From NCBI GenBank assembly GCA_012517095.1, contig JAAYVQ010000157.1, forward strand, positions 1 through 46,776: DNA of 46,776 nucleotides, in the 5' to 3' direction. The stretch comes from Phycisphaerae bacterium. Lineage in GTDB: Bacteria; Planctomycetota; Phycisphaerae; Sedimentisphaerales; Anaerohalosphaeraceae. The notes under the pieces are model-generated. The model searched no databases, had not been told where the DNA came from, and saw only the letters and a list, made by a program, of their open reading frames with translations. How positions within the stretch are numbered: position 1 is the stretch's first letter; every line of letters begins with the position of its first letter. This document shows, piece after piece, positions 18,255 to 35,101 of the stretch. A program made the translations under genes and the position numbers.

Positions 18255-19367
18255 TCAGGGTTCGGTTGTCGCTCGCTTGATATAGATCAAATCGATATCC
18301 AGAAGCAATTTCGATCCCGACAATACCTCCACCTCGTCGAGTACTTTTTCCAGTCCCGCGGATAAAGTTCCCGTACCACGCTTTGACGATAAATCGATGG
18401 GACCCTGCCCGAAGGCCTGGTGCATCTTTTGAAGATATTCCTTTTCCGGATCCGTCAAGGTATCCAGATTGATCTGGCGATATTGATCCCACGAGCCGAC
18501 CATTTCCTCCAGAGATGCAACATAGATCATTTCTTCAGAACAGAACGCTCGCTGGGGACCGATCCCCCACTTCCGATAGGCGGCGGAATCAAACACCCCC
18601 ATGGCCGGCCGAGATGGAAGATCCTGGGGATTTTTCGCAAACATTGCCCGGCAATATCTTCGCACATAGGCCTTCTCGGACTTGCTCAACTGTGGATTGT
18701 TTTCCGTCGCCCAGATTACCTTCCAGCATCCCGTGATGGCCGTAAAATCCGTCGGCCGCCCGGAACAGATTGCGCAGGCCGCTCGGGGCATATTGGATAC
18801 AATCGCCCCGCATCCATTACAAACCCAGTATTGGTCACCCAAGCGCCCCCCCAGCAATCCGAGGGATCCTCGACCTGTCTTGATCCATTCAAGATGGTCT
18901 TCTTTAATCTTCCGTTCCTGCTCGACGGACGCAATCGCCTCGGCATTCCCCTCCCGCCGGATCATCTCCATAAACAGCGAATATCGTTTATCTACACCGG
19001 CCAAACCGACATTGATCATCAGATCCATATCATGCTTGGTCCCATGCAGAGCCACCTCGCCGGACGACGAATCTGGGGCCTCCTGGTCGAAGGCAGCCAT
19101 CAAAAGCTGGTTGTTCTCGGCAAGAACCTCCTGGGAGCGTGCCAACGCCGCAAATAACTGGGCAATCGCCTCATGTCCTTCCCGGCTGGCCTGGTTGGCA
19201 TAAGTCAAATAGGTCTTGGCGTCTTTTTGGGCATCGGAATACATCAATTGCAGAACCGATACGGTCTCCGGGCACCGCGCGGCAGAGTACCGGCCCGCCG
19301 CCACGACCAGAAGGGGACAAAGAAAAACCGTAATTGCCATGCTGATAAGGAGCGTGATTCTTTTCAT
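18255..19367 (-). CDS. Exported rubrerythrin-like protein with a rubredoxin-type metal site
   Basis: The start has AGGAG 8 bases upstream and gives a signal peptide (MKRITLLISMAITVFLCPLLVVAAG), so the protein acts outside the cytoplasm. Residues 30-170 follow the four-helix rubrerythrin pattern (YANQASREGHEAIAQLFAALARSQEVLAEN; IKEDHLEW). A rubredoxin-like module at about 175-205 has intact CNGC and CAIC pairs. The first ExxH pair of the diiron site is replaced (SQEVL instead of xEKEH), and the second pair reads KEDH rather than ExxH, so the diiron centre may be changed or lost. The last 160 residues match nothing I recognise. Ordinary rubrerythrins are about 190 residues and cytosolic peroxide scavengers; this is a long, exported relative. 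A clean promoter precedes it. Confidence 0.75.
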   Translation of the reverse strand: MKRITLLISMAITVFLCPLLVVAAGRYSAARCPETVSVLQLMYSDAQKDAKTYLTYANQASREGHEAIAQLFAALARSQEVLAENNQLLMAAFDQEAPDSSSGEVALHGTKHDMDLMINVGLAGVDKRYSLFMEMIRREGNAEAIASVEQERKIKEDHLEWIKTGRGSLGLLGGRLGDQYWVCNGCGAIVSNMPRAACAICSGRPTDFTAITGCWKVIWATENNPQLSKSEKAYVRRYCRAMFAKNPQDLPSRPAMGVFDSAAYRKWGIGPQRAFCSEEMIYVASLEEMVGSWDQYRQINLDTLTDPEKEYLQKMHQAFGQGPIDLSSKRGTGTLSAGLEKVLDEVEVLSGSKLLLDIDLIYIKRATTEP

Positions 19368-19703: not shown

Positions 19704-22700
19704 TTATTCTCTCTCCGGAATAAAAATATCCTGTGCATCGATGGACCAATACGGCATGAAACCCTCAGCGAAAAGGACTTTAAGTTTGTAGAGTTCCAGC
19801 GACCAGACGTTCGGCTCACCTGAAACGGGAGCTGTCAACTGAACCTCATATCGCCCCACATCTTCAAAATCCACGAACTTCTGGACCGTCGAAACGATTC
19901 GTCCCATCGAATCATACAGGGCCGCCCTGTGAAAACCTTCCCCCATCACCTCAAAGCGGATTTTGACTTCTTTTATCCCCGGCCTTAAGCAGCCGTATGC
20001 CCGTGGCAATAGACTCGCTAACTGCGTGTGTCTGGGGTCGACCACCGTCAGTTTGCATCGGCCGTCCCACTGGACTTGCCAAGCGTAGGCATCGCGACTT
20101 TCGCAGCGCAAACGATAGATGCCCGGCCCCGACAACAAAAGCGAATCGGCTTCGAACATCCTGCGGTCGTTGGCAAAGGTTTTCTCCACAAGGGATTTCC
20201 CCCGCAGATCGTCGATGGTGATCTTGCCCTGTGCCAGTCCTTCTCGAATCAACAGGATGGGAGCGGACACATTCCACTCAACCTTCAGGTACATCTCCGC
20301 GGCGGGATTGACAAAGCGGATCGCCTTCCAACTCGCCACTTCCGGCATTGCTTTGGGGGGCTCTTCGAACACCGGAAACAATCCATATCGCGCCGCGAAG
20401 GCCGGGAACATCCACGCGTGCGTTTCTTCCGCGACGCTATCGCGGTCGTGCAGGAATTCCATCGAACTGATCCACGACCGCTCCATCGCGTCGAGGTACC
20501 GCCCGTCCGGCTTTCGGCCCAGAATCCAACTGAAGGCATTGAGCGTCCGGCAGGCGTACTCCGGATACATCCCCAGCGTACGGTTGGCCACACGATCAAT
20601 CGCCTCGGCGAGTGTGTTGTCGCCGGAAAGCTGTTGTACCGTCAGCATCCCATTCATCGCAATGCCGTTGAAAAACGCAATCCGATTGTCCCAGCGGATC
20701 TTGAATTTGCCTGTCGGCGATTGGCCCTCGATGAGCCGGTTGCAGGCCGTTGTCGCCGCTTCGAGAATCTCGGGATTGCCCGTCACTTCATACAGTCCGC
20801 TGAGGGCATACAACGACCAACCAATCTGTCGTTCATTACCCAGTCCCTCGCCGCGTTCGAGTTGGCCGGCGATCCACTTGCCGATCTTCTCGGCGGTTTC
20901 GAGACTGCGGATCTCACCCGTCAGCAGATAATGCAGCAGCAGGCCCCGGATAAACACATGCCCCAGCTCAGCCTGCGTCGTCGTGTGTTGGGGGCTGTGT
21001 TTCCACTGGAATCCCGCGGCGTTTTCGGTGTCGATGTCGGCCTGGTGCCGCACCATCACTTCGGCCTGGTTCAGGTACCATACATCCCCGGTCCGCAGAA
21101 ACTGCATCAGGAAATTCCACGGTATATCATATTCCAGGTCCATGTACGCATTCTTGCCCTTGTATGGCCCGCCCATGTACCCGTCGCCGAAATCCCGGAA
21201 GCCAAACGGCATACCATTGACGAATTGCTGCATGTCGATCTGCCGTCGCGCCTCCCAATACGGCAACGATTCAAGCGACTCAGGGGTTCGCGGCATCAGC
21301 GCCCCCGCCGCTTTTGTCCCGCACACCCACGCCGGAGGAATCACCGCCCGCAACGGGTCCAGATGCATTGTCTCGGGTTTGTCCAGTGACATCTCCAAAA
21401 CCACCTCGTGCGTCTTGGCCAAGCCCCCTTCCCACTCGAAGGGTTCCTTGCCTGCCCACAACCGAACGCCGAAATTGTCTTTGGATACAAAGAGCTGCTT
21501 GGGACAATTCTGCCAGAAATGCCGCAGGCCGAATTTCGTCCATCGTCCATTGGCTTGTACCCCCAGCCAGCCGGGGCTTCGCGTTCCCTCGATGGGTTTT
21601 TGCCCCGGCCGCTCGATCGTATAGTGCAACTCATCCGGCTGATCGAGCACAACCTCGCTATCGACCGGAACATCGACCACACCCGATTCCGATCCAAATC
21701 GTACGGCCGTGATCTCCCCCGCCGGCCGAAAGACCCAGCGAATGTCCTTGACCTTCACGACTGGATTCGGCGTCTCATACGGTTGTTTTCGTGCTACTGC
21801 ATGCGTTACCGTTAAACACATCCGCATCTGCGGACCCTCACGCATCAGTTCAGTTTGAAGAGTATAATGAAATCCAGTAGGTTTATGATCTGAATCGACA
21901 AGGGTACCCCCCTGCTCATCTTTCAACATATTTGCAGAAGGTGTTATCCGATGATTTTCGTCCTGAAGGGATTGCCATTGCTCGGACCCAGACTCGGTCT
22001 GAACCTTCATCAACAAATCGGTTTCTTTAAAAAGAACCTGATCCTTATCACCCTCCCATACTGAACAGAGCGGTCCCGGTAGCGGTTTGACTTTGATGTT
22101 GGTAACCGGCCAGGGCTTAAACCACGATGCAAGTATCTTCGCTGGGTCGATAGTCTCTGTAGTCGAAACATTCGTTTCGGTAACTTCAGAATTGTTGATT
22201 TCCAGGGTCCGTGTTTCACCCGCATTTGCATCGTATTCTGCTAATAGCCAACGGATCGAACCATCGGGCCATTGGGAAAGGATCTTGACCTGAAGAGATG
22301 CTGGATTTCGCGATGAATCAAGCAATTGAATCATTTTCGGATTACAGAACATCCCTTCCGGCAATGGAAAGCCGGTCCGTACCAATCCCTTCTGTCTCGG
22401 GACGCCGACGATGGTGATCGGGATTCGGCGTGATTCCTTGAGTTTGTCGAATTCGGTCTCGAAAGAAAGTTTTCGCGGCGGGCGAAGGGAAGTATCCAAT
22501 CGCTTTTCCGCCTCCGCAATTACCGCTATCGGATCATACGGCGGCGATTGGCCCGGCAAGTCCTTTACACAGCGAAAACCGACAAAGTCGTGCGCCCCAT
22601 ACGGAACCAGCCGCGCACGCTGCGTACAGGTCCCGGTGTTCGGCACGCCATAGAGATACACTCCCCCCCCGCCGCGGATGACCTTGTATTGCTGGCCAAA

Positions 22701-23321
22701 GTGCGGGCTCCTCGCCGAAGTCCCCGGATAGCCCTCGAACCAGTCGGCCGTCCATTCCCACGCGTTACCCGACATGTCGAGGCACCCAAACGGTGAAGCT
22801 CCTGTCGGAAACTGGCCGACAGGCCGGAGCTTTTCAGAGTCGAGATTGCGCCTGGCTGGATCGTCCACATTGCCCCATGGAAAGAGCCGACCGTCGGTCC
22901 CCCGAGCGGCCTTTTCCCATTCCGCCTCGGTTGGCAGTCGTTTGCCTGCCCAGGCCGCATATCGCATCGCGTCCAGCCAGGTGAGATTGGTCATCGGAAG
23001 TTTGTCGCGTCCGGCCGGGGGCTTTCCTTCGGCCCAGTCAGCCGGTGCCGCGGCCCCGGTGGCCGCAATATACCGCGCGTACTGCTCGACGGTGACCTCT
23101 TCGGCATCGATGTAGAAGGTGGGTATCTCGACCGAGTGCGGCGGCGTCTCCTCGGCGGCGCCGAGATTTGAGCCCATGACAAACGGCCCGGACGGGATCA
23201 GAACCATCCGTGAGCCATCCGAAGTTACGCTCTCCTTTGCCGCAATCGCAACCTCTGTGGATGGTGTAGCCGAAACCGCGGAACATACATACGCCGCAAG
23301 AATGACGATCCAAAATCGCAT
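19704..23321 (-). CDS. Secreted fusion of a SUMF1-type domain and a PcRGLX/YetA-like (PL26-like) lyase region
   Basis: I chose the ATG at 23321 (GGGAG five bases upstream, signal peptide MRFWIVILAAYVCSAVSA), giving 1205 residues. Residues about 35-255 are a formylglycine-generating-enzyme-like (SUMF1) domain: MVLIPSGPFVMGS, EVTVEQYARYIAATG, RLPTEAEWEKAARG, SGNAWEWTADW and GFRCVKD. The C-terminal cysteine pair of true FGE is missing (only one Cys in GTCTQRAR), so it is probably a binding domain. Residues about 295-1100 match the exo-rhamnogalacturonan lyase (PcRGLX/YetA) layout: RIFT barrel (PITIVGVPRQKGLVRTGFPLPEG), beta-sandwich (GWLGVQANGRWTKFGLRHFWQNCPKQL), then an alpha/alpha toroid with AWMFPAFAARYG. 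Rhamnogalacturonan-type pectin is the likely target. It has its own promoter at 23385-23412. Confidence 0.8.
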   Translation of the reverse strand: MRFWIVILAAYVCSAVSATPSTEVAIAAKESVTSDGSRMVLIPSGPFVMGSNLGAAEETPPHSVEIPTFYIDAEEVTVEQYARYIAATGAAAPADWAEGKPPAGRDKLPMTNLTWLDAMRYAAWAGKRLPTEAEWEKAARGTDGRLFPWGNVDDPARRNLDSEKLRPVGQFPTGASPFGCLDMSGNAWEWTADWFEGYPGTSARSPHFGQQYKVIRGGGGVYLYGVPNTGTCTQRARLVPYGAHDFVGFRCVKDLPGQSPPYDPIAVIAEAEKRLDTSLRPPRKLSFETEFDKLKESRRIPITIVGVPRQKGLVRTGFPLPEGMFCNPKMIQLLDSSRNPASLQVKILSQWPDGSIRWLLAEYDANAGETRTLEINNSEVTETNVSTTETIDPAKILASWFKPWPVTNIKVKPLPGPLCSVWEGDKDQVLFKETDLLMKVQTESGSEQWQSLQDENHRITPSANMLKDEQGGTLVDSDHKPTGFHYTLQTELMREGPQMRMCLTVTHAVARKQPYETPNPVVKVKDIRWVFRPAGEITAVRFGSESGVVDVPVDSEVVLDQPDELHYTIERPGQKPIEGTRSPGWLGVQANGRWTKFGLRHFWQNCPKQLFVSKDNFGVRLWAGKEPFEWEGGLAKTHEVVLEMSLDKPETMHLDPLRAVIPPAWVCGTKAAGALMPRTPESLESLPYWEARRQIDMQQFVNGMPFGFRDFGDGYMGGPYKGKNAYMDLEYDIPWNFLMQFLRTGDVWYLNQAEVMVRHQADIDTENAAGFQWKHSPQHTTTQAELGHVFIRGLLLHYLLTGEIRSLETAEKIGKWIAGQLERGEGLGNERQIGWSLYALSGLYEVTGNPEILEAATTACNRLIEGQSPTGKFKIRWDNRIAFFNGIAMNGMLTVQQLSGDNTLAEAIDRVANRTLGMYPEYACRTLNAFSWILGRKPDGRYLDAMERSWISSMEFLHDRDSVAEETHAWMFPAFAARYGLFPVFEEPPKAMPEVASWKAIRFVNPAAEMYLKVEWNVSAPILLIREGLAQGKITIDDLRGKSLVEKTFANDRRMFEADSLLLSGPGIYRLRCESRDAYAWQVQWDGRCKLTVVDPRHTQLASLLPRAYGCLRPGIKEVKIRFEVMGEGFHRAALYDSMGRIVSTVQKFVDFEDVGRYEVQLTAPVSGEPNVWSLELYKLKVLFAEGFMPYWSIDAQDIFIPERE

Positions 23322-23458: not shown

Positions 23459-23495
23459 AAAAAAACAGGGCCCGCTTCCCTTCGAAAGCGAGCCC
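23459..23495 (-). terminator. Intrinsic terminator of the PA14/LamG operon
   Basis: On the minus strand a 12-bp stem (forward arms 23468-23479 and 23484-23495, two G-U pairs, 4-base loop) is followed by TG and seven Ts (23459-23465 on the complement). It lies 51 bases after the stop of the 23547 gene. Confidence 0.93.
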
Positions 23496-23546
23496 CGATA
23501 TTGATTCTACATCTGCAAGGATCAATAATCCCTGCACCTTGACCAT

Positions 23547-25700
23547 TTACTCAACCATGTTATCCTTGAGCCAATCAGCTGCAAAGATGAGGAGGTCCGG
23601 CACATCGACAACGCAGTTTCCATTGAAGTCATACGCAGGACCGGTACCCTTCACGCAACCAGTCGGGTTGGCATCCAGATACAATGCCGCGATCTCCTGA
23701 TCCGACAGGGCATAGTTGTAAATCCGCGCCTCATCGACCCATCCACGGAAGAGTGCGGTCTGATTAGAAGGAGCCCGCTTTCCGATGTGGACGATATCCT
23801 GCGTCTGCAGTTGCTGACCTGTCGCCTGACCGGTATAGACGCCATCAAGATACCACTTGACGATCCGAGTGGCCGGATCATAGCTGGCTACCAGGAAGTG
23901 CCATGTACCGTCCATGGGGGCAAAGCCCCAGTCGCCACCATACCGCGTGATGCAATATTGGGCATTACCGCCGTACTTATTGAAGTCGAAGACATACTCG
24001 TTGGCGGAGGTTGTGCTGGTAAATCCGAAAACATTGCACCAGTTGCCAACTTCGGCAGCAGGAACGGCGTTCTTTGCCCAGCAGGCAATCGTCCGCGGCG
24101 AATTATTCCCGACACCTGTCGGGCTGAAACCCGTCATGAACGGCGCGGCCAATCGGGCATACTGCGAGTTGGTTGTGCCAGCGATGTTGACGGCAAGAGC
24201 ATTGCCCTTCATTCCCGGTTCAAACACAGGGGCCGAGGCGTCGGTGGAGTAATAAGTACCCGGCAACAGATTACCCGTGTCATCGGCCAGATCCTCATCC
24301 AACGGCCAGTAAGCCACCAACTTCTTCGCCGGTTCAACCTTGGTGAAAAATCCCCAGGTTGGACCTGTGGTGATCGTGGGTTGTCCACCTGGCGTCTCAT
24401 TGGGTTCGGAAACATCGACGCGCCACTGATAGGCCTTATCGACAACCAGTTCGGGATCATACGAGGTTTGGGTACCTTCGGCCACCTTGACCAGGGTTTT
24501 TCCGGCCTCGGCAAAATATACCACATTGGTGAAATTCGTCTTGCCAACCGGATTGGACCAAGTCAGCACGGCATCCACCGGCACATACATCTTATTGTGC
24601 GGATAGGGCGCACAGGCAGTTTTTGCCGAGTAGATCGCCTCCATCGGGATTTCCTTCCACGGAATCGTGGAGGTACGATAGTTCACCTGGAGGATATCAC
24701 CGCCGCCGTCTTCGAACATCTCGACAACGATTCCGGCATAACCGGCGGGCAATTCAATACTGCCATACCGCCACTGACCACCATGCCAGCCGTCGTTGTT
24801 GACCACGAGGGTCAGCGGGCCGCTTTCCCACCAGTTGCCGATATACAGCTTGCTGCCGTCATCGGAGGTGGTTCCAAAGGTATAGAGATCGGCCACATCA
24901 ACCTTGATGATACCGTACTGGCGGTAGACATAGTCATCCGTTTGGGCAGGCATATTAACCCAGAATTTGGCCATGGTCCCCGTCGATGTCGGAGGTGTGG
25001 TGATCGTCGAGAAATCGGGCATGATACCATTGATGATCCCCAATTCGGAAACATCGGTGGCCGCTTTCCAATACTGGTATTCCACCGCACCGACATTGGT
25101 ATACGGATGAACCAGATCCACCGGACAGGTGTTGGACACATAGGCCATCGGAACCAGAGTTGTGGTGGTTACGCCGGCCTCGGCGCACTGGAAACCGACG
25201 CCACAACCATCGCCGCCGCCGCCTTCACTCCAGGCAGCCCAGAAATAGTAGGGCTGATTGGCTTTCAACGGAAGCCATCCCGACGGTACGATATCGGCAT
25301 CTCCAAAATCATTCTGGCCTGTCCAGCCGTTTTCTGTGGCAATCTTCACCGCACCGGCCGGGTTCTCGCTGGTGCTCAGCCACAACTCGGCATAATCATC
25401 GGCCGCAATCCAGAACTTGTAGTTCCCATCAATCGGGGGAATCATCCAACCCTCAAAACGCGCGGCATAGTTTCCGCCGTTTTCCCAACTCGGTGTCGTA
25501 AGACCCGCTGGAGAACCACTTCCGGCATAGGCGTAATTGGTACTCGTCGGCGGCGTCGTGAAATTGCGCGTGTACGCCCGGACCGTCGTCGTCCCATTAC
25601 CATCATCCCACCGATGATAAATCATCTTGCCACGCTCGGCCGAGACAACCCCGGCAAGTCCCATACTGACTAACATGACTAAAATGAGCAATTTCTTCAT
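23547..25700 (-). CDS. Secreted PA14-PA14-LamG protein with a C-terminal half-dockerin
   Basis: The ATG at 25700 has GGAGGA eight bases upstream and a signal peptide (MKKLLILVMLVSMGLAGVVSA); the protein has 717 residues. The first part (about 25-180) is PA14-like (NYAARFEGWMIPPIDGNYKFWIAADDYAELWL). A second PA14-like unit follows at about 190-345 (GIIKVDVADLYTFGTTSDDGSKLYI). Residues 350-450 form a FN3-like repeat (TNVVYFAEAGK...YQWRVDVSEP). A LamG/concanavalin domain spans about 460-675 (AYWPLDEDLADDTG, WVDEARIYNYALS). The last 30 residues (YDFNGNCVVDVPDLLIFAADWL) are one dockerin-like EF repeat; a full dockerin has two. No enzymatic motif was found. It probably binds polysaccharide outside the cell. 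It is read with the next gene, 62 bases upstream. Confidence 0.8.
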   Translation of the reverse strand: MKKLLILVMLVSMGLAGVVSAERGKMIYHRWDDGNGTTTVRAYTRNFTTPPTSTNYAYAGSGSPAGLTTPSWENGGNYAARFEGWMIPPIDGNYKFWIAADDYAELWLSTSENPAGAVKIATENGWTGQNDFGDADIVPSGWLPLKANQPYYFWAAWSEGGGGDGCGVGFQCAEAGVTTTTLVPMAYVSNTCPVDLVHPYTNVGAVEYQYWKAATDVSELGIINGIMPDFSTITTPPTSTGTMAKFWVNMPAQTDDYVYRQYGIIKVDVADLYTFGTTSDDGSKLYIGNWWESGPLTLVVNNDGWHGGQWRYGSIELPAGYAGIVVEMFEDGGGDILQVNYRTSTIPWKEIPMEAIYSAKTACAPYPHNKMYVPVDAVLTWSNPVGKTNFTNVVYFAEAGKTLVKVAEGTQTSYDPELVVDKAYQWRVDVSEPNETPGGQPTITTGPTWGFFTKVEPAKKLVAYWPLDEDLADDTGNLLPGTYYSTDASAPVFEPGMKGNALAVNIAGTTNSQYARLAAPFMTGFSPTGVGNNSPRTIACWAKNAVPAAEVGNWCNVFGFTSTTSANEYVFDFNKYGGNAQYCITRYGGDWGFAPMDGTWHFLVASYDPATRIVKWYLDGVYTGQATGQQLQTQDIVHIGKRAPSNQTALFRGWVDEARIYNYALSDQEIAALYLDANPTGCVKGTGPAYDFNGNCVVDVPDLLIFAADWLKDNMVE

Positions 25701-25762
25701 TGTAATGTTCCTCCGCAAATTCGATTCATTAGTATTCATCCTAATTTCGGACTTTGGGGTTG

Positions 25763-28700
25763 TTATAGACTGCTCTTGGCCCACTCAGCCGCAAACAAGC
25801 TGAAATCGTTCAGATCGACCGCGCAGTCTCCGTCAAGGTCGCCCGTCAGGGCCTTATAGCAAATCGATCCAGGATAGACCCCCTGATACAGGCCAACCGC
25901 TTCTTCCGGAGTCAACGCATAGTTGTACAGACGGAAGTCGTCGATATACCCCTGGAAGCGGTTCACATCGTTGTTATACCGACCGAGGACAAAGTTGGCC
26001 CCATTGTCGGTATTCAGGGTAACGGCATAATCCACGACGAGTTTACCATTGGCGTAGAGCTTGCTTCGGACACCATCGTGTACCAGAACAAAGTGAACCC
26101 AGGTGTTATAGCTGGGGATCACCGCAGTATCCGCATCGGCCGCATAGTACTGAACGCGCCAGGTTCCTTCGGTGGCCGCCATCGTTCGCAGGCAGAAATT
26201 CTGCCGTTCGGCATAAGCACCCACATCAAACAGACCGCCATCATTAAAGGCCTGTGCCTTGGCCCAGACGCTGACGGTTCTCGGGAAGTTTCCGGAAATA
26301 CCGAGTTCCATCGGCTTTTTGTTGGTGGTGATATAGGCGTTGTTCGGGTCGTTGGGGCCAAGCAACTTGATGGCCTTGCCAAGCCCGATACCGCCATCGG
26401 CCAAGCTGTAATACGGAGCAGAGCCGCCCGCCGGGCAGATCAGCGTGCCATCAAAATTACTGGCCGACTGATCCGGAACGATATTGGTGCCTTCGATGGA
26501 CTCGAAAGTATAGTGCAGCATCAGACGATGGGTCAGCAACAGGCCGTTCGAGGAGCTGGTCGGACCGACGGTGTTGGTGACGACGCAGTGGTAATACCCT
26601 TCATTGGCCAGTTGAACATTCGCCACAGCCAACGGGCAATCATAATTGCCATCGACATCCGGGCCGATCGGAACGCCTTCGTAGATCTTTGTCTCGCCGA
26701 AGAACCACTCGTACTTGACCATTGGAACCAGATCGGGAACGGTCGCGGTCGAGGCCTTGACCGTCAGGTTAGCCGTCGCACCGGCATTGACCACGGTCAA
26801 TGGAGCGACATCTGTCCGAATCTGCGGGTACTGTTTGACGGTGTCAAAGGTCCAGACATCTCCAGTCGCCGTGGTTGTACCAACCACAGTATCGACTCTC
26901 CAGTAGATGGTCTCATTGAACGGCAGGTTATTGGCGGGAAGCGTGAATTCGGTCACATCCGGATCCGTCTGACCATACAAAGTCATCGAATCCGCGGACA
27001 AGCCGCCATAGACCTTGTAATAGCCGCCGCAGGGCGCCGCATCGGATTTGGTCCAGGTCACCTTCAGATCCTTCGTGGGATCGACCCACCCTTCCGGTGT
27101 CAACGGATCATACACCGGATTGGTCGGCTGCCAGAAGGTAAGGCCGGCAAACGACGCACTAACATTGTCAAACACGCTGGTGTTTAAGGCACCCGTACTG
27201 TGAGCACAAACCGCCAGACCCGCATACACATTGGCTCCCATTGAAATCGTCACGGAACCGTGCTGCGCCCAGTTGACACCATCGGCCGAATAATATCCCG
27301 TGAAAGTATTGCCCGAACGGGTAATACGAACCCATTGGGGAGCATGCAGGTTGGGCGAACCGCCGGCAGCGGCACCACCCCCGGTCGAGGTACGATATTG
27401 GAAAATGTCGGCGGCGCCGTTGGAAGAGGGAATTACCGGCATGATGGCATAGGTGGAATTGGCATTCAGGGTTTCACGGATCATGACACCCGACTTGCTC
27501 CACCCGTCCGTGTTCGTGGTATTCAAACTGACAACACGGGCCGAGATTGAACCGTCTCCGGACACCGGAACATAGGCATATTCGAAACCATCGGCCGTAT
27601 TCCAGATGTCATCGCCGGAACCGATTACGGTGAAGGTGTTTCCGCTCCGGGTCATCCCAACACCCGGTTGATTGCCAGTCCCGATTGCAACCGCAGTCAG
27701 GTTCGGAGTCCCGGAGTACATCAAGAATCGAACTTCGGTGCTCTTGGTCATTCCATTCTTATTGCTGACTTCGACCCAATAGGTATTGGGATCATTCTTC
27801 GCCGGGATCAATTGAGAATACGACGAGGAGAAGATCTCCGGATCCGCCGTTGCCACACCCGCTTCGGTTTTCAGCGTGGTGCCATCGGCTTTCTTCCAGA
27901 CAAAGGTCATGTCGCCCTGGTCCGCATAATCGCCGGATTTGGCCTCGACCGTCATTGTCGCCAGGCAGTTCACTGCGACCGAAGTATCGGTGGGTTGCTT
28001 GGTAATGATGGGCCGGGCCGACTTGGTCGTAAAGGACCACCAGAAGCCCCGGGCCACATCCGAATTGACCGTATTGGTGGCATCGACGCGCCAGTAATAG
28101 GTCTTGCCCGCTTCCAGCGTCGGGCTGTTGATCTGCCGCGTGGGCTCGGTCACGGTGCCAATCAGCACAACATTTGGATCATGCGGAGAAGAACCAAAAT
28201 AGACTTTCCAGTCCTTGATGTATCCGCCGGCTTCCGGATACGGAATGGCGCCCCAGGACAACTGCACCGGTCCGGGGTAGTCCACATTCAGTTCGCCTTT
28301 GGCGGGAACAGGAGAAGCCGCGCCATAGTTGAACTGGATGGTGTCAAACACCGCAATGGACAATGAAGCAGCATTGTGCGGGCAGGAAGCCAGACCGATG
28401 TACAACGGGTCGGTCAAGGCCATACTGAGATTGCCCGCCAGCTCGGCATTTCCGGTCATCCAGGTCCATTCCACACCATCCTGAGAATAATACCCGTTAA
28501 AAATGTTCCCGACACGGGTCATTCGGAGATACACCGGCTGGTAGTAACTGGCACCCGACTGGTTGCCGAGGATATAGGTTTGAGGATCCGTCGGCGGATC
28601 TGCCGGCCTGCGGCATTGCCAGGAGATTCCATTGTTCGGCTGCGCAGAATCACCATGCGCGGTTGCGGCAATCAAAGCATAGGGCGAAGCCCCGCTGGTG

Positions 28701-29032
28701 TCGATGTTCTGTCGAACCATGATCCCCGCTTTGGACCAGCCATCCCCCGTGTTGGAGGTTGTGAAATTCTGCAAACAGCAGGAAATATCAAAATCACCGG
28801 AAATCTGCATATAGGCATATTGGAACGCGTCATTGGTGTTCCAGATGTCATCGCCGGTACCCTTGACCGTGTAGGTATTCCCATCGCCGCTGACATCGAC
28901 GCCATAACCTGGGTTCGTCCCGGTTGTGCCGATCTTGATCCCGGTCAGGACCGGCGTACCGAACGCGGTCCCCAGACCGACTCCGCTACTGGCCAGTCCA
29001 ATCACCAACAACATAATTAAGACTTTTTTCAT
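25763..29032 (-). CDS. Secreted multidomain protein: two DUF1349, FN3, Ig, LamG and a half-dockerin
   Basis: The protein has 1089 residues and a signal peptide (MKKVLIMLLVIGLASSGVGLG); the GGAGGA before the start lies in a leader like that of the next gene. Residues 30-235 and about 445-650 are two DUF1349/concanavalin-type domains: each has GDDIWNT, a 'GWSKAGIMVR' or 'GWSKSGVMIR' core and a GYYSxDGVxW strand. Each is followed by an FN3-like unit (WRVDATNT; YWRVDTVVG) and an Ig-like unit (WKKADGTTLKTEAG...; WFFGETKIYEGV). A LamG domain spans about 860-1040, and GDLDGDCAVDLNDFSLFAAEWA closes as a half-dockerin. The double domain set shows internal duplication. No catalytic residues were found; a polysaccharide-binding or surface role is likely. 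Confidence 0.82.
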   Translation of the reverse strand: MKKVLIMLLVIGLASSGVGLGTAFGTPVLTGIKIGTTGTNPGYGVDVSGDGNTYTVKGTGDDIWNTNDAFQYAYMQISGDFDISCCLQNFTTSNTGDGWSKAGIMVRQNIDTSGASPYALIAATAHGDSAQPNNGISWQCRRPADPPTDPQTYILGNQSGASYYQPVYLRMTRVGNIFNGYYSQDGVEWTWMTGNAELAGNLSMALTDPLYIGLASCPHNAASLSIAVFDTIQFNYGAASPVPAKGELNVDYPGPVQLSWGAIPYPEAGGYIKDWKVYFGSSPHDPNVVLIGTVTEPTRQINSPTLEAGKTYYWRVDATNTVNSDVARGFWWSFTTKSARPIITKQPTDTSVAVNCLATMTVEAKSGDYADQGDMTFVWKKADGTTLKTEAGVATADPEIFSSSYSQLIPAKNDPNTYWVEVSNKNGMTKSTEVRFLMYSGTPNLTAVAIGTGNQPGVGMTRSGNTFTVIGSGDDIWNTADGFEYAYVPVSGDGSISARVVSLNTTNTDGWSKSGVMIRETLNANSTYAIMPVIPSSNGAADIFQYRTSTGGGAAAGGSPNLHAPQWVRITRSGNTFTGYYSADGVNWAQHGSVTISMGANVYAGLAVCAHSTGALNTSVFDNVSASFAGLTFWQPTNPVYDPLTPEGWVDPTKDLKVTWTKSDAAPCGGYYKVYGGLSADSMTLYGQTDPDVTEFTLPANNLPFNETIYWRVDTVVGTTTATGDVWTFDTVKQYPQIRTDVAPLTVVNAGATANLTVKASTATVPDLVPMVKYEWFFGETKIYEGVPIGPDVDGNYDCPLAVANVQLANEGYYHCVVTNTVGPTSSSNGLLLTHRLMLHYTFESIEGTNIVPDQSASNFDGTLICPAGGSAPYYSLADGGIGLGKAIKLLGPNDPNNAYITTNKKPMELGISGNFPRTVSVWAKAQAFNDGGLFDVGAYAERQNFCLRTMAATEGTWRVQYYAADADTAVIPSYNTWVHFVLVHDGVRSKLYANGKLVVDYAVTLNTDNGANFVLGRYNNDVNRFQGYIDDFRLYNYALTPEEAVGLYQGVYPGSICYKALTGDLDGDCAVDLNDFSLFAAEWAKSSL

Positions 29033-29794: not shown

Positions 29795-32700
29795 TTGTAT
29801 GCGGCGATGAAAGCAACCTTTTGTGCCGGACTGTTGACCTTGTGGGCATCCTTGTTGCCCGCACAATGTCCCCCCGGCGACCTGAACCACAACTGTACGG
29901 TCGATTTGCCGGATTTGGTGATTTTTGCCGAGCAATGGATGGCTCCGGCGGGGTGTTCCGGACACGCCAATGACTGCGCAGATTTTTACTTCAATGACGG
30001 TGTTAATTTCTATGATTTTGAATATTTCACCCATGCCTGGGGCCGTCATACACCCCCCCTGCTGATCAATGAATTTATGGCCTCGAATAATTCCCGCCCC
30101 CCGCTGGATCCGGGAGAATTGCTGGATGAGGATGGACATTCTTCGGATTGGATCGAGTTATATAATCTGTCCGGGGTCACAGTCCCCCTGGCCGGATGGA
30201 TCCTGACCATCGATCCGGATCACCAAAAGGTCTGGACATTTCCTCAGGGCGTAATGCTCGAAAGCGGACATTACCTCGTCGTCTTTGCGTCTGAAAAAAA
30301 CCGGATCGATCCGGAAAGCGAATTGCATACGGACTTCGTTCTGGACAAGGCCGGTTCATACCTGGCTTTGATCGAACCGGACGGCGTGACGATCGCCAGC
30401 GAATTCGCCGGCAACGAGTTCTTGTTTCAACACTATGGCTATCCGCCACAGGAAACCAACGTGTCTTACGGTCGAATGGAGGCAGACCTTCGGTACTTCT
30501 CCTCCCCCACTCCCGGCCAACCCAACAACGGAGCGTTTCTCGGTTTTGTCGGACCGGTCACCGTCAGTCAAAAGCACGGTTTTTTTTCCGAAGACTTTGA
30601 GGTCCGCCTGACCTGCGAAACCACGGACGCCCAAATTCGATACACAACCGATGGATCCAATCCGACCGAAGCCAACGGGATCACCTACGATCCGGCAACC
30701 CTGATCCAGATCAACAAGACAACCGTTTTGCGGGCGGCAGCGTTTAAAATCGGGTTCCGGCCGAGTCGTACGGAAACCAATACTTATCTGTTTCTCGAGG
30801 ACGTGATCGTCCAGTCGCCCAACGGTGAAATTCCCGCGCCCGGCTGGCCGGAGGGTTCGGTCAACGGACAGGTCATCAATTACGGCATGGATCCCGAAGT
30901 CGTCGAAGATCCGCGATACGCCGGACACATGCTGGAGGCAATGAAGGCCATTCCCTCCATTTCCATCACGACGGATCTGGCCAATCTGTTCGATCCGGAG
31001 ATCGGGATCTATGTCAACGCCTGGGATGACGGACGAGATTGGGAACGGCCCTGTTCGATGGAATTGATCCATCCGGATAAGACCGAGGGCTTCCAGGTCA
31101 ACGCCGGCCTGCGAATCCGCGGGGGTTTCAGCCGATCGGACCAGAATCCCAAACACGCCTTTCGACTATTCTTCCGCCAGCAATATGGTGACAGCAATCT
31201 GAACTACCCCCTGTTCGGAGATGAGGGCATCGATTCATTCGATAAGATCGACCTGCGGACGGATCAGAACTATTCATGGAGCTTTCGTGGCCAAGGAGGG
31301 ATGGATAATGGTTCCAAAAATACGATGGTCCGCGAAGTTTTCTCGCGTGACACGCAGGGCCAGATGGGCCAGCCCTATACCCGGAGCCGTCACTATCATC
31401 TATATATCAACGGCCAGTACTGGGGGATTTATCAAACCCAGGAACGGCCGGAATCGCGATATGGGCAGGATTACCTCGGCGGCGACAGTACCGAATACGA
31501 TGTCATGAAGGTCGAAGCGGGTCCCTATTCGATCAATCCCACCGACGGAAACGACGCCGCCTACAAACGGCTTTGGCTGGCCGCCATCGAAGGTTTCGAG
31601 TCGGATGAGGCCTATTACGGCATTCAGGGATTGAATCCCGACGGTTCCCCGAATCCCGATCGAGAAAAACTACTCGATGTCGATAACCTGATCGACTACA
31701 TGGCGATCATCTATTATACGGGGAATTACGATTCCCCCCTGTCGAATTTCCTCGGAAACAACCGTCCCAACAATTATTACGCCATGTTCAATCGGCAAAC
31801 GCCGGACGGGTGGAAATTCTTCTGCCACGACGCGGAACATTCTCTGTTTCTCGGATGGGATCGTACCGGACCCTGGGATGACCCGGACCTGCGAAAATTC
31901 AAGTATTTCAATCCACAATGGTTACATCAACAACTCTGCGTTCACCCGGAATATCGGATGCGCTTCGCCGATCGGATCCATACCTATTTCTTCAATGACG
32001 GCCTGCTCACACCCGACAAGGCGATGCAGCGTTTGAAAGCCCGAGCCGATCTGCTTGAGACAGCCATCATTGGCGAATCGGCCCGCTGGGGCGATTCGAA
32101 GGTGACAAAACCGCGTACCAAGGATGACGATTGGCTGCCGGAACTCAATCGCCTATATGAGGACTACTTCCCCTATCGCACCGACGAGGTCCTGTGGCAG
32201 TTTATCGGGCAGGGATGGTACCCTGGGACAATAGCGCCGATCTTTTATATTGGCACTCAATACCAGCATGGTGGAAGGGTAACGCCCCCCAATAACATCC
32301 TGAACATCATCAATCCGAATATCACGGGTACTCTTTATTACACCACGGACGGAACCGATCCGCGAGGGCTGATTGCCCCGCCGCCTCCATCAACGGAAAC
32401 GGTCCCCCATTTGTCTGAAACACCGGGGACGACCGATACCGATAGTACTACCGTGCCCCCCCCGCCGGCGGATGGAGAGCTTGGCGAAGCCGACATCGCC
32501 TGGATCACGGATACCGATCTGGATACCGAATTCACCGATTTGTTGGACGATCATGGTTACTCCGTGGATCGTTATGAAAGGATGATGCGGGGCCCGTTGG
32601 ATTCCCGGCGAATCGCTCTGCTGAACAAGGCCAAACTGGTCATTGTCAGTCCCGCGACGCTCGATATCAGCTATGGCGATCCGTCCGGTTGGAACGGCAT

Positions 32701-35101
32701 CACCACCCCGTTGATTCTTATGAATCCATCCCTGTCCGGAAGCGAAAATGGCCGATGGGAATGGATCGCGACGGCCGTCGAGAGCAATTCGTACGAACCG
32801 ACGGATTTATGGACTCCGATGCCGGACGATCCTCTGTTCTTCGGAATCTCTTTGACGGGAGGCGACAGCGTCAATGTCGTTACCAGTAATACGCCTTTCG
32901 TCCCGGTCAATGAGGATCAATTCGCGTACCCCAATAACAACGGGTTGGCCAAGGCCTTTCGCGTCGATGATACGACACCCTATCTGTGGATCGCCCAGTG
33001 GGATTCGTGGCAGGATCAGCCGTATCATTGGGGTACCGACCAAAAACCGGCCGGGGGAAGAATGTTACTGACGCTGGGGCAAGGGATTGATTCGCTGAAA
33101 CCCTTCAATCTCAACGCCAGCGGCAAGAAACTGTTCCTGAACGCCGTTGAGGTCATGTTGAACTACGCCAATCCCGACGATGTCAATTTCAGCCCCTATG
33201 TCTGGGCCGGTTGGGATGAAGAAATCATGTGGCCGGAAAAGGAAGTGCAACTCTTCGGCTGGATCGATGATGACGGAATGTTGCCCGATCCGAATGATCT
33301 GACCTGGGAATGGTCCAAGCTTTCCGGACCCGGCGAAATGACGATTGTTACGGAAGAAAGCTACCGATACGATTACTCTTGGGGTCCCTACTCCTATCGT
33401 ACAATCCTGACTTTTCCAACGATGTCCTTCTCGGCTCCGGGGGTCTATGAAATCCAACTTGAGGCCTTTGATGGTGAATACTATTCCTCCGATACGGCTA
33501 TCGTTAAAGTACTCGAACCGGTCGCATCGTTGACTCTCGACAAGAGTACCCGCATCAAGTCCCGCATCCTCAGCGAGTATGGCGAGTGGAGCGCGCTGAA
33601 CGAAGCCACTTATGGCGTCGGTCCGGTCGCCGAGTCTTTGCGGATCTCCGAAATCCACTATCATCCGGATGGCGACCCGAACAGCGAATTTATCGAGGTC
33701 GTCAATGTCGGAACGGAACCCATCAATATTTCCTGGGCCGCGTTTACCGAGGGAATCCGTTTTGAGTTCCCCGATATCGACCTGCCGCCCGGCAAGTATT
33801 CAGTCGTCGTCCGCAACCAAGCCGCCTTCGAAAACCGGTACGGAAAGACGATCCCCGTGGCGGGCCAATACCAGGGAAATCTCGAGAACGCCGGAGAGCG
33901 AATCGTCCTGAGGGATGCCGTGGGGAAAGTGATCCACTCGTTTAAGTTCTCCGACGGTTGGCATCCGACCACAGACGGTCAGGGTTTTTCGCTGACCTTC
34001 CGCAATCCGAAGAATCCCGATCCAGTCGCATGGACGGTCGGTTCTTCCTGGCGGCCCAGTTCGCTGGTCGGCGGTTCGCCCGGCAGCGACGACGACGGCG
34101 TCGTTCCGCCTCCCGGCACGATCGTGATCAACGAACTTCGCGCTCACTCCGATGACCCGTCCGGAGATTGGATCGAGCTCTATAACAACTCTCCCGATGC
34201 CGTCAATATCGGCGGCTGGTTTTTGTCCGATAGCGACTCCGATGATCCCAATCGGATGAAATTTGAGATCCCGGAAAACACGATCATCGGTGCCAATGGC
34301 TTCAAGGTTTTCTACCAGACTACCGACTTCGGAAATCCATCCAACGACAACCCGTTTGCCCTTAGCGAAAACGGCGAGACGGTCTATCTTCGTTCGCGTT
34401 TGGATTCTACAGGGCACTTCACCGGTTACTTTGCCGAGCAAAAGTTTGACGCTTCCCTGGTCAATACGTCGATCGGCCGATATCTGCGTTCCGACGGTGG
34501 CGTTGATTTTGTCGCCCAGAGCCGGCCAACGCCCAACGAGACCAACGCCTATCCGAAGGTCGGTCCCGTTGTGATCAGTGAAATCTATTACAACCCTCCC
34601 ACCGGCGGGACCTATGACAGTGAGGAATACGAATTTTTCGAACTGATGAATATCACCACAAGTCCGGTCACTTTCCAGTCGTTCGATAACGAGCTCCAGA
34701 CGGATCTGCCCTGGGTCATCAACGAGGGAATCCAGTTTACTTTCCCCTTGAACACCACGCTTGCCGGAAATAAACGGATGATTCTGGCCCGCAACCCCGC
34801 TGCCTTCACCGAACGGTTCGGCAGCAGCCTTCCGTCCGGAACCGTCGTGCTCAAATGGACCAGCGGCAAGCTCGACAACGGCGGTGAAAAACTCCAGTTG
34901 TCCCAGCCCGGGGACAAGATCGGCTCGACAAGATATTACATCCCCGTCGATACCGTCAAATACTCCGACCAAAGCCCCTGGCCGACCTCTGCCGACGGAA
35001 ACGGACATTCCCTCTATCGCAAACTGCCAACCTTCCCCAATAAAAACTATGGCAACGACCCGGCTAACTGGAACGCAAATACCCCCACACCGGGAAAATA
35101 A
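29795..35101 (+). CDS. Giant secreted CotH-kinase/lamin-tail-domain protein with an N-terminal dockerin-like repeat
   Basis: The TTG at 29795 is preceded by AGGAG at 29781-29785 (nine bases); an ATG four codons on has no such site. The 1768-residue protein has a signal peptide, then DLNHNCTVDLPDLVIFAEQW, a half-dockerin placed at the N-terminus, and a related FNDGVNFYDFEYF segment. Lamin-tail domains occur at about 88-250, 1283-1400, 1441-1560 and 1590-1750 (INEFMASN, ISEIHYHP, INELRAHS, ISEIYYNP with DWIELYN-type strands). A chitobiase-C-like unit is at 253-330. The CotH kinase-like domain (about 383-770) has LRIRGGFSR, KHAFRLFFR and YLYINGQYWGIYQTQERP-like features. A second chitobiase-like unit is interrupted by a Pro/Thr linker and a flavodoxin/GATase-like segment (about 905-1090). 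A PKD-like unit is at 1136-1245. Confidence 0.8.
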   Translation: MYAAMKATFCAGLLTLWASLLPAQCPPGDLNHNCTVDLPDLVIFAEQWMAPAGCSGHANDCADFYFNDGVNFYDFEYFTHAWGRHTPPLLINEFMASNNSRPPLDPGELLDEDGHSSDWIELYNLSGVTVPLAGWILTIDPDHQKVWTFPQGVMLESGHYLVVFASEKNRIDPESELHTDFVLDKAGSYLALIEPDGVTIASEFAGNEFLFQHYGYPPQETNVSYGRMEADLRYFSSPTPGQPNNGAFLGFVGPVTVSQKHGFFSEDFEVRLTCETTDAQIRYTTDGSNPTEANGITYDPATLIQINKTTVLRAAAFKIGFRPSRTETNTYLFLEDVIVQSPNGEIPAPGWPEGSVNGQVINYGMDPEVVEDPRYAGHMLEAMKAIPSISITTDLANLFDPEIGIYVNAWDDGRDWERPCSMELIHPDKTEGFQVNAGLRIRGGFSRSDQNPKHAFRLFFRQQYGDSNLNYPLFGDEGIDSFDKIDLRTDQNYSWSFRGQGGMDNGSKNTMVREVFSRDTQGQMGQPYTRSRHYHLYINGQYWGIYQTQERPESRYGQDYLGGDSTEYDVMKVEAGPYSINPTDGNDAAYKRLWLAAIEGFESDEAYYGIQGLNPDGSPNPDREKLLDVDNLIDYMAIIYYTGNYDSPLSNFLGNNRPNNYYAMFNRQTPDGWKFFCHDAEHSLFLGWDRTGPWDDPDLRKFKYFNPQWLHQQLCVHPEYRMRFADRIHTYFFNDGLLTPDKAMQRLKARADLLETAIIGESARWGDSKVTKPRTKDDDWLPELNRLYEDYFPYRTDEVLWQFIGQGWYPGTIAPIFYIGTQYQHGGRVTPPNNILNIINPNITGTLYYTTDGTDPRGLIAPPPPSTETVPHLSETPGTTDTDSTTVPPPPADGELGEADIAWITDTDLDTEFTDLLDDHGYSVDRYERMMRGPLDSRRIALLNKAKLVIVSPATLDISYGDPSGWNGITTPLILMNPSLSGSENGRWEWIATAVESNSYEPTDLWTPMPDDPLFFGISLTGGDSVNVVTSNTPFVPVNEDQFAYPNNNGLAKAFRVDDTTPYLWIAQWDSWQDQPYHWGTDQKPAGGRMLLTLGQGIDSLKPFNLNASGKKLFLNAVEVMLNYANPDDVNFSPYVWAGWDEEIMWPEKEVQLFGWIDDDGMLPDPNDLTWEWSKLSGPGEMTIVTEESYRYDYSWGPYSYRTILTFPTMSFSAPGVYEIQLEAFDGEYYSSDTAIVKVLEPVASLTLDKSTRIKSRILSEYGEWSALNEATYGVGPVAESLRISEIHYHPDGDPNSEFIEVVNVGTEPINISWAAFTEGIRFEFPDIDLPPGKYSVVVRNQAAFENRYGKTIPVAGQYQGNLENAGERIVLRDAVGKVIHSFKFSDGWHPTTDGQGFSLTFRNPKNPDPVAWTVGSSWRPSSLVGGSPGSDDDGVVPPPGTIVINELRAHSDDPSGDWIELYNNSPDAVNIGGWFLSDSDSDDPNRMKFEIPENTIIGANGFKVFYQTTDFGNPSNDNPFALSENGETVYLRSRLDSTGHFTGYFAEQKFDASLVNTSIGRYLRSDGGVDFVAQSRPTPNETNAYPKVGPVVISEIYYNPPTGGTYDSEEYEFFELMNITTSPVTFQSFDNELQTDLPWVINEGIQFTFPLNTTLAGNKRMILARNPAAFTERFGSSLPSGTVVLKWTSGKLDNGGEKLQLSQPGDKIGSTRYYIPVDTVKYSDQSPWPTSADGNGHSLYRKLPTFPNKNYGNDPANWNANTPTPGK

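Follow-up and report, generated by a model that had tools for sequence, protein, structure and literature searches.

A SUMF1/FGE-like domain fused to a predicted PL26-like lyase in a few Planctomycetota

We describe a gene of a Phycisphaerae bacterium (assembly GCA_012517095.1) whose product joins a SUMF1/FGE-like domain to a region related to PcRGLX, the PL26 exo-rhamnogalacturonan lyase of Penicillium chrysogenum. The gene lies in a 46,776-nucleotide stretch of contig JAAYVQ010000157.1, analysed as a whole and called here the window. The fusion is real and recurrent in a few other Planctomycetota, since the same join is found again in them. With a probability of about one half, we take the protein to be a PL26-like lyase that is secreted and guided by an FGE-fold domain with a binding, non-catalytic function, an estimate that extends to substrate, chemistry, binding and location, all of them predicted. 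Its building blocks are known, and it is their arrangement that is new and rare. Multi-modular carbohydrate enzymes of planctomycetes are known in general (PMC11131199), so that the new element is this specific combination; no description of a SUMF1-PcRGLX fusion was found in the titles and abstract openings listed from the open-access literature.

The fusion gene and its surroundings

The original prediction had placed one 1205-residue chain at this locus. The reading frame bears this out, on the minus strand, an indication that was missing from the prediction (Table 1). An in-frame GTG located 51 bases upstream of the ATG is an alternative start. The protein looks like an exported one, and its Sec-like N-terminus would place it outside the cell.

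Table 1. Features of the fusion gene and its upstream flank (window coordinates).
Feature	Residues	Position	Strand	Basis
Fusion-protein CDS, 1205 aa		19704..23321	(-)	ATG at 23321, stop at 19704
Sec-type signal peptide	~1-18	23268..23321	(-)	Hydrophobic stretch then AVSA, by eye
SUMF1/FGE-like domain	38-253	22563..23210	(-)	PF03781 (FGE-sulfatase), E=3.7e-54
Remodelled FGE active-site segment	216-251	22569..22676	(-)	Alignment to human FGE
Linker	~254-298	22428..22562	(-)	
PcRGLX-type N-terminal RIFT barrel	~299-375	22197..22427	(-)	PF19501 at 313-374; model strands
Central beta-sandwich (PcRGLX_2nd-like)	~376-655	21357..22196	(-)	PF21345 in orthologs; model strands
Alpha/alpha toroid, probable catalytic domain	~656-995	20337..21356	(-)	Model helices; PcRGLX top match
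Most conserved toroid stretch (R758, H759, D762, D764, H775, H779, H788), putative active site		20958..21050	(-)	Invariant or near-invariant columns in family alignments
C-terminal beta-rich module	~996-1205	19707..20336	(-)	Model strands; alignment; close clade only
Terminator-like hairpin		23466..23497	(-)	3' of upstream LamG/PA14 gene, by consensus scan

Directly upstream and also on the minus strand, two genes (23547-25784 and 25763-29032) encode large, secreted-looking PA14/LamG/DUF1349/Ig proteins, both with a dockerin-like stretch at their end, as judged by eye. The hairpin of Table 1, which comes from a scan whose total sites were no more numerous than in shuffles, lies between the LamG/PA14 gene and the fusion gene and suggests a separate transcript; an operon of the two was thus not assumed. 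The plus strand carries, at 29795-35101, the gene of a 1768-residue protein with a CotH kinase, four Lamin Tail Domain stretches and chitobiase-C-like repeats. Downstream of the fusion gene, 18255-19367 (minus strand) encodes a secreted-looking rubrerythrin/nigerythrin-like protein, whose matches are far below the curated cut-offs. A defence-system reading of the locus was discarded, as PADLOC gave no match. No viral relatives were found, and a structure search among viral proteins returned low-TM matches only.

The same join is found in other genomes

As the window genome is in 493 contigs, a frameshift or an assembly chimera could be suspected at residues 260-295, the place pointed out in the original prediction. 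However, the fusion is uninterrupted and in one frame in L009 (locus L061), L060 and L011 (locus L063), and in genome G587 the SUMF1 part and the lyase part run off two different contig ends that have a 12-base end in common. Including the window, this amounts to four uninterrupted copies and one split copy; the contig of L015 ends before the SUMF1 region. All 45 linker positions of the join region could be aligned, with 33-44% identity. A tree of 35 rows, from which L013, L022, L026, L028 and L043 were left out, groups six lyase parts into a single clade (support 100/100). These independent copies of the same join led us to reject the frameshift or chimera, whose probability is negligible.

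The distribution of the fusion is patchy. In the phylum, 89 of 392 genomes had some match to the lyase part, close only in the window's own genome and G290. At class level, 9 of 397 genomes matched it at E<=1e-10; five of these genomes, one of them the window's own, gave close matches, and none of the 20 other genomes listed for the same family had a match. The SUMF1 part was found at E<=1e-40 in 6 of the 397 genomes, namely the window's own, four fusion genomes and one with a distant stand-alone copy. The nearest neighbour, L015, is listed only as belonging to the same phylum, which together with the patchy spread is a hint of horizontal transfer.

Among 34 relatives extracted, 22 entered the family alignment together with the window protein, and 10 more were scanned with Pfam (L013, L022 and L064-L067 were outside the Pfam scan). 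SUMF1 was detected in none of the 28 distant lyase relatives scanned; 20 are clean negatives with the 5' end in view, and in the other eight (L024, L026, L028, L032, L034, L035, L038, L039) this end lies beyond the fetched stretch.

The SUMF1 domain has lost the FGE activity residues

The first part had been predicted to have an FGE-like fold, and the Pfam search confirmed this with a full-length match to the FGE-sulfatase family (184.5 bits for a cut-off of 23.3, Table 1); in a search of its own genome the domain scored E=1.9e-55. A model of the domain built from three sequences reached a pLDDT of 38, and no structural claim was built on it. NCBIfam matches of this part to EgtB, SenA, PvdO and GldK are all far below their cut-offs.

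The domain is thus alike FGE over its whole length, but differs from it at the active site, and by being part of a predicted secreted glycan enzyme. In human FGE, mutating S333, C336, H337, Y340 or C341 alters activity (PMC4505483). Upon alignment, these five residues are all substituted in the fusion protein, by G219, Y222, L223, V226 and P227 respectively. The catalytic cysteine pair (C336 and C341) is therefore absent, as had been noticed from the sequence, and a role as sulfatase activator, already doubted then, was rejected on these residues. No sulfatase was found among the scanned neighbours in the window or beside the orthologs, though the genome has 17 sulfatase matches. The structural disulfides of human FGE are C346-C235 and C365-C218 (same source). 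Opposite C346 and C365 stand C232 and C251, retained in every fusion member seen, and Y222, Y224, N228-T-G, C232, R235 and R237 were likewise retained in the members seen.

The lyase part is related to PcRGLX

The second half had been likened to PcRGLX, a claim supported by the first PcRGLX domain, by the sequence profile and by the fold. In the window protein, PcRGLX_1st (PF19501) scored 26.2 bits for a cut-off of 22.1 (E=7.1e-6). PcRGLX_2nd (PF21345) was above cut-off in three orthologs, L009, L010 and L011. As to PcRGLX_3rd (PF21346), the window protein and the three close orthologs scanned were below cut-off; neither of these two families appears among the matches of the window protein at E<=1. 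Across 23 family members at E<=0.01, the three domains were detected in 20, 14 and 8 proteins respectively. Searched against the PDB, a profile built from 23 relatives matched PcRGLX (5XQ3) at E=2e-39. Profile and fold matches to PcRGLX both extend into the toroid.

A structure model of residues 262-1205, made from six sequences, was of modest quality (pLDDT 64, pTM 0.54) and shows a barrel, a sandwich and a toroid, then more beta strands. Every one of its best PDB matches was a PL26 entry, with a Foldseek E of 7e-16, a TM of ~0.37 and an rmsd near 11. In a comparison of the model with PcRGLX, 554 residues were aligned with a Z of 21.6 and an rmsd of 7.0, against a Z of 16.0 for the next unrelated row. 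The low TM is probably due to the modest model, so that the kinship is better supported by the sequence profile. The order of RIFT barrel, beta-sandwich and alpha/alpha toroid is the same as in the PcRGLX structures (5XQ3, 5XQG, 5XQJ, 5XQO), and about 14% of the structurally aligned residues are identical; the window protein differs by its additional N-terminal SUMF1 domain and C-terminal beta-rich module.

Could the toroid be a hydrolase, of the GH127, GH88/105 or aceric-acid-hydrolase type, rather than a lyase? It is related to that of GH127 beta-L-arabinofuranosidases: three orthologs (L009, L010, L011) match the GH127 family (PF07944) above the Pfam cut-off, while the window protein, at 15.6 bits for a cut-off of 24.9, is below it. 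Weak matches to aceric acid hydrolase were also found in L009 and L011. However, GH127 structures rank well below PcRGLX in the fold search and do not have the PcRGLX domain order, which the fusion protein has in full. We consider a hydrolase unlikely, and keep to a lyase in what follows.

Residues invariant or nearly so across relatives include G712, D713, D732, R743, H759, D762, H775, H788 and R831. In the profile alignment, examined by eye, PcRGLX has the same residue at F602-W603, P607, G712-D713, E730, R743-T-G, H759, D764, H775 and H779. This suggests, at the level of aligned residues, that fusion protein and PcRGLX have a catalytic site in common.

The C-terminal module and the conservation of the parts

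The two-part layout first proposed for the chain proved incomplete, as it overlooked the C-terminal beta-rich module. This module aligns in all six close members, and not in the distant relatives displayed. Its sole NCBIfam match is a weak one to Por_Secre_tail (13.9 bits versus 23), and it was barely covered by the fold search.

Identity of the window protein to L009, L060 and L011, respectively, was 65, 66 and 62% for the SUMF1 domain, 67, 67 and 53% for the toroid, 40, 42 and 39% for the RIFT barrel, 34, 33 and 30% for the beta-sandwich, and 44, 44 and 40% for the C-terminal module. The constraint on the SUMF1 domain thus resembles that on the toroid, which is probably catalytic (62-66% against 53-67%), the other accessory parts being at 30-44%. 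This level of conservation shows that the domain matters, and leaves unsaid in which manner. It counts against a plain binding module, because the catalytic domain would often be the slower to evolve of the two.

The same conservation, together with the residues retained around the former active site, might also be read as the mark of an enzyme whose active site has been rebuilt, with the same glycan or a partner protein as its target. Other enzymes of the SUMF1 fold include EgtB, OvsA, SenA and PvdO, and SUMF1-fold enzymes of other chemistries are among the PDB matches. But nothing is left of the FGE catalytic motif, and the EgtB, SenA and PvdO families are those matched far below cut-off, so that we hold this reading to be improbable. 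Still further from expectation, the domain might modify the polysaccharide chemically beside the lyase, which would make a new kind of two-step glycan-cutting enzyme.

Proposed role of the fusion protein

We favour a binding role for the SUMF1 domain in a secreted planctomycete PL26-like enzyme. RIFT barrel, beta-sandwich and toroid would form one catalytic unit, cleaving a polysaccharide of rhamnose and uronate (rhamnogalacturonan I or similar) by beta-elimination, like PcRGLX. The N-terminal FGE-fold domain, whose FGE copper/cysteine site is lost, would be a non-catalytic binding module that keeps the enzyme on its polysaccharide, and probably aids it in locating its sugar substrate. Within the C-type-lectin fold, the FGE subclass serves ligand binding as well as catalysis (PMC5006420), which makes such a role reasonable. 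According to that source, the FGE-type fold is used non-enzymatically in the binders Mtd and TvpA; the sequence match of TvpA to the window protein is weak (E=0.04). Both the lectin-like guiding role and the rhamnogalacturonan substrate that had been proposed are plausible.

Should the binding role be borne out, FGE-fold domains that lack catalytic residues would count as carbohydrate-binding modules. This would account for some of the many planctomycete SUMF1 copies annotated as sulfatase modifiers, and SUMF1 counts should not be taken as a capacity for sulfatase activation.

SUMF1 domains and glycan enzymes in the genome and beside orthologs

The window's own genome (G000) contains 16 SUMF1 matches (loci L044-L059). 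The domain was seen in 8 of 9 frames scanned, the frame of L054, without SUMF1, being probably a wrong one. Leaving L054 and L059 aside, the FGE spacing of the two cysteines was found in none of the SUMF1 segments viewed in this genome, and its sulfatases may, judging from this spacing, be matured another way.

Two of the eight SUMF1 frames also have PA14 (one of them LamG as well), while GLUG occurs in one and sialidase-like BNR repeats in one. The company of PA14 and LamG, and the SUMF1-like folds of GldK/PorK, would fit a domain that attaches to a protein or to the cell surface, so that the enzyme is anchored in a complex for secretion or at the surface instead of on its substrate. Against this, no conserved partner stands next to the fusion gene in the neighbourhoods viewed, and GldK is matched far below its cut-off; we regard anchoring as a possible, though doubtful, function. 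For the glycan-binding lyase that we prefer, the gene content gives points on both sides. GH88/105 enzymes normally handle lyase products, and their lack of any match above cut-off in this genome counts against a lyase.

In its favour, the genome has four GH78-type rhamnosidase matches and three PL11 C-terminal matches, and other SUMF1 copies have PA14, LamG, GLUG or BNR domains beside them. Genes for GH123, heparinase II/III-like, DUF5054/GH38-like and arabinofuranosidase proteins, found among the neighbours of the orthologs, count on the same side. Finally, the BNR-containing frame (L052:1-1884), with its SUMF1 domain followed by the sialidase-like repeats, is a further case, within this genome, of SUMF1 fused to an enzyme.
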